In this document: positions 35,460-37,561 of the stretch, in pieces
Position numbering within the stretch: the first letter of the stretch is position 1
How the letters are laid out: each line of letters begins with the position of its first letter
From: Armatimonadota bacterium
GTDB lineage: Bacteria; Armatimonadota; Fimbriimonadia; Fimbriimonadales; ATM1
Reading direction: 5' to 3'
Length of the DNA stretch: 47,922 nt
Assembly: GCA_021324165.1 (NCBI GenBank)
Contig: JAJPJR010000051.1
Coordinates: forward strand, 1-47,922
The notes under the pieces: generated by a model
Seen by the model: the letters and a program-made list of their open reading frames with translations, nothing else
Databases searched by the model: none
Told to the model about the DNA's origin: nothing
Made by a program: the position numbers and the translations under genes

Positions 35460-35732
35460 CTAACCGCGAACCGAGCGTTTTTCTACCTCATCCAGCCTGC
35501 GGTGAACCGATGCGAGCCGATCATCCAGATTCAATACGTGCTCGTTCAGCATGTTTTTCAGTTCTTGAATCTCGGTTCTCATCGCCTCGATTTGGGTGTC
35601 GCGCTGCTGCGTTCGATCACCGGCGCGCATTGTAAGTTCGGTCATATGACGCTGATGGCGCAGCACGAGCGCGATGATCGGAATCAAGAACGCCATCGCG
35701 CCAAGCAAGAATGGGAAAATCTCTTCGGTCAT
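35460..35732 (-). CDS. Small membrane/coiled-coil protein, third of three tandem paralogues
   Basis: The 90-aa protein has one N-terminal membrane segment (IFPFLLGAMAFLIPIIALVL) and then a heptad-patterned coiled coil (MRTEIQELKNML...LDDRLASVHRRLDEVEKR). Layout and size recall PspB-type small envelope proteins, but no specific family motif is visible. The ATG overlaps the stop of the preceding paralogue (35729-35732), so it is translationally coupled to the operon that starts with the HisB homologue. Confidence 0.72.
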   Translation of the reverse strand: MTEEIFPFLLGAMAFLIPIIALVLRHQRHMTELTMRAGDRTQQRDTQIEAMRTEIQELKNMLNEHVLNLDDRLASVHRRLDEVEKRSVRG

Positions 35733-36037
35733 ACCGATTTACGTTCTGAAGCGCGCTCGATGGATTCCACGCGACGCGAAAGTTGTTCAACGTTCTGATC
35801 CAAGCTCATCGCATGATCCATCAGAATCGTTCGCATTTCGTCCACTTTTCGTTCCAAAGATTGTATCTCTGACCGAACGCCTTCGTCTACGTTCGACTGC
35901 TTGTTCAGCAGTTCGGCCATGCTTCTTTGATGCTTGGTGAGCACAGCCACCAGCCCGATGAGCATCGGCAGTCCGATCGTGCAAAAAATCGCGATAATGG
36001 GAATCACTAAGCCCTCCGAAATATCCGCAACGTTCAT
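35729..36037 (-). CDS. Small membrane/coiled-coil protein, second of three tandem paralogues
   Basis: The 102-aa protein has a membrane segment at about 10-33 (VIPIIAIFCTIGLPMLIGLV) and a coiled coil ending DHAMSLDQNVEQLSRRVESIER, clearly related to the genes on both sides. It overlaps the first paralogue by four bases at its start and the third by four at its end. Function unknown; it may form a hetero-oligomer with its neighbours. Confidence 0.74.
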   Translation of the reverse strand: MNVADISEGLVIPIIAIFCTIGLPMLIGLVAVLTKHQRSMAELLNKQSNVDEGVRSEIQSLERKVDEMRTILMDHAMSLDQNVEQLSRRVESIERASERKSV

Positions 36038-36348
36038 TCTCTCAGTTTTGCCTGCCGGCTTTCCTCCAGCGCCTCCACTCGGCGGGTCAGCAGCTCAACG
36101 TTTCGATCAAGGCTCATCGAATGGTCAACCAACGTTTTGCGAAGCTCCGTCATCTCGTCGCGAAGCCTCTGCAGTTCGGCCTGAGCGCTTGACCGCACCC
36201 GCATCTCCATCTCCTTATTAAACCGGCCGTCTCTCAAAGTCGAGCGCCGAATCCTGCCGCCGATGCCGATCAGCATCACCATCATGCCGATCCCTACCAG
36301 AATCTGCACGACCGAATTGCTAAACAAAAGATGGAACGCTTCGCTCAC
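36034..36348 (-). CDS. Small membrane/coiled-coil protein, first of three tandem paralogues
   Basis: The 104-aa protein has a membrane segment at about 12-30 (VVQILVGIGMMVMLIGIGG), a basic stretch, and a coiled coil with DHSMSLDRNVELLTRRVEALEE. I place the start at GTG 36348 because AGGAA lies just upstream and the GTG overlaps the stop of the HisA-like gene (GTGA). The shared motif LD.NVE.L.RRVE..E ties it to the second paralogue and more loosely to the third. Confidence 0.72.
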   Translation of the reverse strand: MSEAFHLLFSNSVVQILVGIGMMVMLIGIGGRIRRSTLRDGRFNKEMEMRVRSSAQAELQRLRDEMTELRKTLVDHSMSLDRNVELLTRRVEALEESRQAKLRE

Positions 36349-36908
36349 GTCGTTTCCTGCCGGTTTTGTTCGGGTCGAATCACAACCGCCTCTAACTCTA
36401 CCGGCAACTGGCCGATTAGGTTTCGCTCCCTTTGCCACGCCTGGTGATCGCAGCACAGTTGAACACCCATCGAGCTGGCCGAGATCAACTCCAATTCCTC
36501 GTGCAGCCTGCCCCATTCGTCCACGTCAATCAGCACTCGGGCCGCCCCAATCTCCTTCAGAACGCCGGCTCGAAGGCCCACTGCCGAGAGCGGTATCCGG
36601 CAAACGCACCGGTCCCCAAGCACCCTGACAAAGTGCGCCGCCGATTGGGGGGTTCTCCAAAGGGCATCGCCGATGACCACGCGCGACACACCCAGCCCGA
36701 GCACCATCTCAGCCACGTGCACCAGGTTGATCCCTCCCCAATATTGGACGGGCACCGTCGCTTTCGAAACTGCCTCCAACAGCAAGCCGGGGTTTCCCGG
36801 CGCGCCCAAACGTTCGCTTTCAAAATCCTCGATGTGCACGAACGGAGCCGGCACAGGAGTGGAATCCGCTCCCAACAACACGGCTTGCACCACAGGGACG
36901 GCGGTCAA
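36345..36908 (-). CDS. Shortened, divergent HisA-like protein
   Basis: This protein of about 187 aa resembles the (beta/alpha)8 HisA isomerase of histidine synthesis: VPVQYWGGINLVHVAEMVLGLGVSRVVIGDALW at 52-84 matches the HisA/HisF VPVQVGGGI...GV.RVIIG block. It is about 50 residues shorter than true HisA; the N-terminal PAIDL strand with the catalytic Asp is missing and the VDLDGA strand reads VHIEDFE. It is unlikely to be a normal HisA. A TTG at 36908 overlapping the HisB-like stop (TTGA) is the likeliest start; no better start codon is seen. It sits in an overlapping operon with the HisB-like gene upstream. Confidence 0.65.
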   Translation of the reverse strand: MTAVPVVQAVLLGADSTPVPAPFVHIEDFESERLGAPGNPGLLLEAVSKATVPVQYWGGINLVHVAEMVLGLGVSRVVIGDALWRTPQSAAHFVRVLGDRCVCRIPLSAVGLRAGVLKEIGAARVLIDVDEWGRLHEELELISASSMGVQLCCDHQAWQRERNLIGQLPVELEAVVIRPEQNRQETT

Positions 36909-37474
36909 GTTTCGGTTGGCGTAACGGCCTTCCGAAGGGCGGCGCCCAGCCCTTTGAAAATCGCCATGCACGTAAGATGATTGTTGCTTCCCGCAAGCTT
37001 TTTAATGTGAAGAGTCAGCCCGGCGTGCTGCGCAAACGCCCTGAGAAACAGCTCGACGGAGTCCGCACTCAGACCGCCGATGCGGTCGGTGGTGAACGGC
37101 GCATCGAACGCAAGGTACGGACGGCCGAATAACTCGAGCGCGACCAGCACCAGGCTGTCATCTTGAGGAATCAGTTCGGATGCGAACTTTAGAATCTGCT
37201 TATCGTCGCCGAGCGCGTGGGCAAGCGCCCTGCCAAAGCAGATGCCGACGTTTTCAACTGTATGCACATCGTGCACCAGCAGGTCGCCCTCGGCGGTGAT
37301 TCCGATGTCGAATCGCCCGGCATAGGCAAGCAGCCCGATCATCGAATCGAGGTATCCGATCCCCGTATCAACGGTGGATTTCCTTTCGCCGTCAATATCG
37401 AGCACGAACCGCACGCGGCCGTGCGAGTTTTCATGTTCGATTTCGGCGTACCGCACTCCGGTCGGCTTGCTCAC
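36905..37474 (-). CDS. HisB-like (imidazoleglycerol-phosphate dehydratase fold) protein lacking metal ligands
   Basis: The 189-aa protein aligns along its whole length with IGPD (HisB): TVDTGIGYLDSMIGLLAY, GDLLVHDVHTVENVGICFG, IPQDDSLVLVALELFGRPYL, LTLHIKKLAGSNNH and FKGLGAALRKA. But active-site residues are changed: the DHML His is Ser44, the first His of DDHHTVED is Val70, the MDE motif is QDD, and of the HH..E cluster only His166 stays while Leu167 and Met170 replace His and Glu. It therefore probably cannot hold the two Mn ions. The GTG start at 37474 has TATAAT at 37496-37501. It heads a five-gene overlapping operon. Confidence 0.82.
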   Translation of the reverse strand: MSKPTGVRYAEIEHENSHGRVRFVLDIDGERKSTVDTGIGYLDSMIGLLAYAGRFDIGITAEGDLLVHDVHTVENVGICFGRALAHALGDDKQILKFASELIPQDDSLVLVALELFGRPYLAFDAPFTTDRIGGLSADSVELFLRAFAQHAGLTLHIKKLAGSNNHLTCMAIFKGLGAALRKAVTPTET

Positions 37475-37501: not shown

Positions 37502-37509
37502 CGAAACGA

Positions 37510-37533
37510 CCGGCTGCGAACGTTCGCAGCCGG
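37510..37533 (-). terminator. Long palindromic hairpin after outer-membrane protein gene
   Basis: CCGGCTGCGAA (37510-37520) and TTCGCAGCCGG (37523-37533) form a perfect 11-bp inverted repeat. It lies between the outer-membrane-type gene and the HisB-like operon, and the minus-strand sequence after it (CGTTTCGT) is only mildly T-rich. Confidence 0.6.
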
Positions 37534-37561
37534 CCGAAATGGAGATAACAAACCTGGCGCG

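Follow-up and report, generated by a model that had tools for sequence, protein, structure and literature searches.

A degenerate HisB-HisA pair in a family of Fimbriimonadales, probably retained as pseudoenzymes outside histidine synthesis

The window, by which we mean the whole 47,922-nucleotide stretch of DNA that was analyzed, carries two adjoining genes homologous to the histidine biosynthesis genes hisB and hisA, followed by three genes for small membrane proteins (Table 1). The frames are intact and overlapping, as an earlier preliminary description of this DNA had stated; the overlaps are TTGA at the hisB-hisA junction, GTGA at hisA-cc1 and ATGA at both cc1-cc2 and cc2-cc3. The three cc genes (35460-36348) are tandem and related to one another, and cc2 and cc3 loosely resemble PspB-like envelope proteins in profile matches that are not significant. 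The terminator-like hairpin suggests that the hisB-hisA pair begins a transcript of its own.

Table 1. Genes and other features of the hisB-like/hisA-like locus (positions in the window)
Feature	Position	Strand	Remarks
HisB-like (IGPD fold) pseudoenzyme, 189 aa	36905..37474	(-)	E21, H47, H73, H170, E173 and C-loop lost; H74, E77, D108, R121, H145 and H169 kept
HisA-like shortened TIM barrel, 187 aa	36345..36908	(-)	TTG start overlapping the hisB-like stop; catalytic Asp lost
cc1, small membrane protein with one N-terminal hydrophobic segment, then a coiled coil	36034..36348	(-)	GTGA overlap with hisA-like
cc2, small membrane coiled-coil protein related to cc1	35729..36037	(-)	ATGA overlap with cc1
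cc3, related small membrane coiled-coil protein	35460..35732	(-)	ATGA overlap with cc2
Terminator-like hairpin, 13 pairs	37507..37536	(-)	Between the upstream outer-membrane-like gene and hisB-like

The HisB-like protein matches PF00475 over its whole length in a profile search (7e-44), which bears out the earlier claim of a full-length HisB fold. Its AlphaFold2 model, a single chain predicted from a shallow alignment, has a pLDDT of 84, and its best matches are solved IGPDs (TM 0.9). In the solved enzyme, Mn1 is bound by H47, H74, H169 and E173 and Mn2 by H73, E77, H145 and H170; E21 is catalytic, D108 assists, the E21Q mutant is inactive, and a C-terminal loop bears S199 and K201 (PMC4509728). 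Aligned with that enzyme, the window protein has Ser44 for H47, Val70 for H73, Leu167 for H170 and Met170 for E173 (window numbering first), so both Mn sites are incomplete. The preliminary description had listed these four replacements correctly, together with QDD for MDE; the latter is no ligand loss, as D108 is retained and MDD is frequent among normal relatives. It had missed that the catalytic E21 position is occupied by His and that the C-terminus stops short of the C-loop (S199/K201). Compared with HisB/IGPD, the protein is a full-length homolog with the same predicted fold, descended vertically from the family's own HisB, but without the catalytic E21, several Mn ligands and the C-loop. 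Automatic annotation would label this protein of the window organism HisB, which should serve as a warning.

The open frame of the HisA-like gene spans 36345-36971 (reverse strand), and its likely start is the TTG at 36908, giving a protein about 50 residues short. Its match to PF00977 (HisA/HisF) is weak (26 bits; cut-off 23.6). The shortening had been recognized beforehand; the N-terminal strand, which had been thought to be lacking, is present though short, with its catalytic Asp gone, and in the alignment the deletions are distributed across several loops, the N-terminus not being their sole site. The N-terminal half keeps the GAPQN, GG and H-x-AE-LxLGV core of HisA, the ProFAR isomerase, a homologous barrel from which the protein differs in its removed loops and in the loss of both the catalytic Asp and the C-terminal phosphate motifs SGG and GKA. 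Its AlphaFold2 model, also from a shallow alignment, is a shortened barrel with an unreliable C-terminal part (pLDDT 65), and among solved structures it is matched best by HisA (TM about 0.6).

Family f1 (Fimbriimonadales, Armatimonadota) comprises the window genome (G000) and seven others, all of them draft assemblies, the majority or all derived from metagenomes. A scan with a six-row HisA-like alignment finds four of its members: Armatimonadetes bacterium B31T1B5, MGR_bin364, ATM1 and Fimbriimonadales bacterium TGS_ARM1. The locus is syntenic across the family, with gatC and gatA on one side and the outer-membrane-like gene, ndk and an aminotransferase gene on the other. At this position G002 retains an intact hisB-hisH-hisA, and in five genomes (the window genome, G003, G004, G006 and G007) a degenerate HisB adjoins a degenerate HisA with no hisH between them. 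The same pair recurs in other genera of the family, a point in favor of the preliminary description. G005 has the HisA-like gene only, with a 485-base gap without remnant at the expected hisB position, and the G001 contig starts at the HisA-like gene, so the hisB position upstream is unreadable there. In all, the HisA-like gene persists in 7/7 genomes and the HisB-like gene in 5/6 readable ones; given its outright loss in G005, the HisB-like protein is not indispensable everywhere. The strand-1 catalytic Asp is replaced in all seven degenerate HisA-like proteins, which are strongly diverged in G004 and G007.

The adjoining membrane genes had been read as a sign of new function. Orthologs of cc1 adjoin the HisA-like gene in the window genome, G001, G003, G004 and G005; a recognizable cc1 was not found in G006 and G007. 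However, an ortholog also overlaps the normal hisA of G002, and a distant homolog adjoins a HisA homolog in family f2 (G008). The link between hisA and the membrane gene is therefore ancestral, predating degeneration, and weak evidence of a membrane role; because G002 has these genes beside a normal hisA, we dropped them as a marker of new function.

In the HisB tree, the five degenerate proteins form one clade (98/80) in which G007 branches first, nested in a family clade (99/91) with one further member, their sister, the normal HisB of G002. Since they form one clade, HisB catalysis was, as far as the tree can tell, probably lost once. E21 and the C-loop serine are missing from all five, whereas among 27 other HisB rows of the alignment E21 is kept in every one and the serine in 26. 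Manganese ligands are lost in four of the five; the degenerate HisB of G007 retains all eight, and as it branches first, E21, the C-loop, hisH and HisA catalysis would have been lost first and the metal ligands later. All five share H74, E77, H169 and R121, and the lost positions carry different residues from genus to genus (position 47: L, Q, Y or S; position 73: R or V; position 145: E, Q or H). The clade also has residue changes in common that normal HisBs do not show, among them Tyr for Phe at position 41 in each of the five. A signature pattern with arginine 73, searched over 291 genomes of the phylum, returns three family members and, as a chance match, one unrelated membrane protein. 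With the five proteins pooled, decay is significantly faster at active-site positions than at the remaining invariant ones (p 0.0003, the five not being phylogenetically independent); taken alone, only 2/5 show this significantly, and we base no conclusion on it.

Pairwise protein identity among the degenerate HisBs is 49-65%, compared with 63-68% for gatA and 49-66% for gatC in the same genomes, and identity at fourfold sites of degenerate hisB is 0.21-0.39, the random level expected of saturated sites. Codon-model omega is 0.014-0.019 for degenerate hisB, 0.013 for gatA and 0.014-0.017 for ndk, and hisA-like evolves faster at 0.062-0.089; with dS saturated these values are rough, and the argument stands on protein identity set against fourfold saturation. 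Neutral drift at 0.5-1 substitutions per site would leave about 18-37% identity, and copies simulated under neutrality to 0.5 substitutions per site were still free of stops in only 0.5% of cases. Judged by these comparisons, purifying selection is strong on the HisB-like protein and weaker on the HisA-like protein. A lost catalytic motif in a protein sequence under purifying selection is what marks a pseudoenzyme, and residue losses, omega and identity together support the earlier view that both proteins are catalytically dead yet selected.

The pair provides the sole PF00475 and PF00977 matches in the window genome (2.33 Mb, judged 97% complete), in which hisG, hisI, hisF and hisD, searched for family by family, were not found. 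An external supply of histidine should therefore be needed by the window organism. As it is not a prototroph, the lack of a bona fide hisB or hisA elsewhere in its genome does not count against the conversion put forward in the preliminary description. In G002, hisG, hisD, hisI and hisF are located elsewhere in the genome, apart from hisB-hisH-hisA. G003 and G004 have a second, complete collinear cluster, hisG-hisB-hisH-hisA-hisFI-hisD, with other flanks, whose normal HisB is placed in the tree at a distance from that native to the family; they still retain the degenerate pair, whose role is therefore probably outside histidine synthesis. These two clusters (L070:4474-9993 and L071:5562-10886), with their fused hisF-hisI and family-foreign HisB, lie in two genera at different genomic places. 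In five genomes elsewhere in the order HisB was not found, and the only PF00977 matches are partial ones that we take for another barrel, so pathway loss need not leave a pair of this kind behind. Weak PF00977 matches to about positions 102-222, in frames of 350-418 aa, were set aside as probable cross-matches to another barrel family. G001, without hisG, hisD or hisI, encodes a full-length PF00977 protein (G001:C420:719-1393, 211 bits), which may be left over from HisA or HisF, may be a different amidation protein or may stem from contamination (6%).

Several explanations can be weighed against this evidence. The pair could be a slowly decaying relic with no protein-level function, its frames still open either through its recent origin or because translation of the coupled membrane genes requires ribosomes to traverse it. 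It is indeed a vestige of the native his operon with overlapping frames, hisB is gone in G005 and hisH in all degenerate loci, and G006, which is without hisG or hisI, holds what looks like a real decaying relic, a 44-residue C-terminal fragment of histidinol dehydrogenase (G006:C39:9133-9264). But coupling guards the frame, not the amino-acid sequence, and the clade is several genera deep; the persistence of 49-65% identity despite full saturation at fourfold sites excludes decay for the HisB-like protein, and we regard this explanation of the pair as highly improbable. Even harder to sustain is that either protein still serves histidine synthesis, with the missing steps taken by unrecognized enzymes. 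The eight metal ligands of G007 would fit, yet E21 is lost in all five HisBs and E21Q is an inactive mutant (PMC4509728), the window genome is without the other four pathway genes, and the pathway of G003 and G004 has its own normal HisB; we give this idea almost no credence.

Somewhat less improbable, though still unlikely, is that the altered pocket catalyzes a different reaction on a related substrate. Some active-site residues do remain in the window protein, and H74, E77, H169 and R121, with D108 in most, are kept across the clade. However, lost positions that are filled differently in each genus hardly resemble one conserved new active site, and this is why we consider binding or scaffolding the likeliest mode of action. 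The explanation that we favor, and hold to be likely, is of a vertically inherited pseudoenzyme pair, derived from the native hisB-hisH-hisA and kept for a non-catalytic binding or scaffold role outside histidine synthesis. After deletion of hisH from the family's native operon and the loss of histidine synthesis, the two genes would have remained as a pseudoenzyme pair. The HisB-like protein would still fold, would probably assemble like IGPD, and would work by binding either a partner protein or a small ligand in the active-site remnant (H74, E77, H169, R121). The HisA-like protein, co-translated with it, could be its partner or could provide a second binding module. The assembly might be anchored at the membrane by the coiled-coil proteins that this overlapping message also encodes, a step that we put forward only tentatively. 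More doubtful still is the full arrangement, in which a non-catalytic IGPD-type hollow 24-mer, the HisA-like barrel and the membrane proteins form a membrane-associated scaffold or sensor. Ligand sensing, as suggested in the preliminary description, is a possible role, to which the present data hold no specific pointer.

Biosynthetic enzymes are usually expected to vanish after pathway loss; here, two of them persist over several genera with dead active sites. Reuse of a catalytic fold without catalysis around histidine synthesis has a parallel in HisZ, a relative of HisRS. HisZ, however, activates HisG, whereas HisG is absent in the window genome. Like other pseudoenzymes of metabolic origin (PMC10211241), the pair has lost catalytic residues while selection has kept fold and sequence; it differs from them in that it comprises two proteins encoded in a single operon, which have outlasted their pathway. 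Our literature searches found no pseudoenzymes of HisB, HisA or the histidine pathway. The family allows stages to be compared side by side, from the normal enzyme (G002), through loss of the catalytic residue and C-loop with metal sites intact (G007), to loss of the metal sites (G006, G003, G004 and the window), and this series opens to direct testing the question of which non-catalytic job a histidine enzyme can take on. In a further HisB, from family f4 (L021, G029), H73 is replaced by Leu, E77 by Gln and D108 by Ser, with E21 kept; it is possibly a second, independently degenerating HisB.
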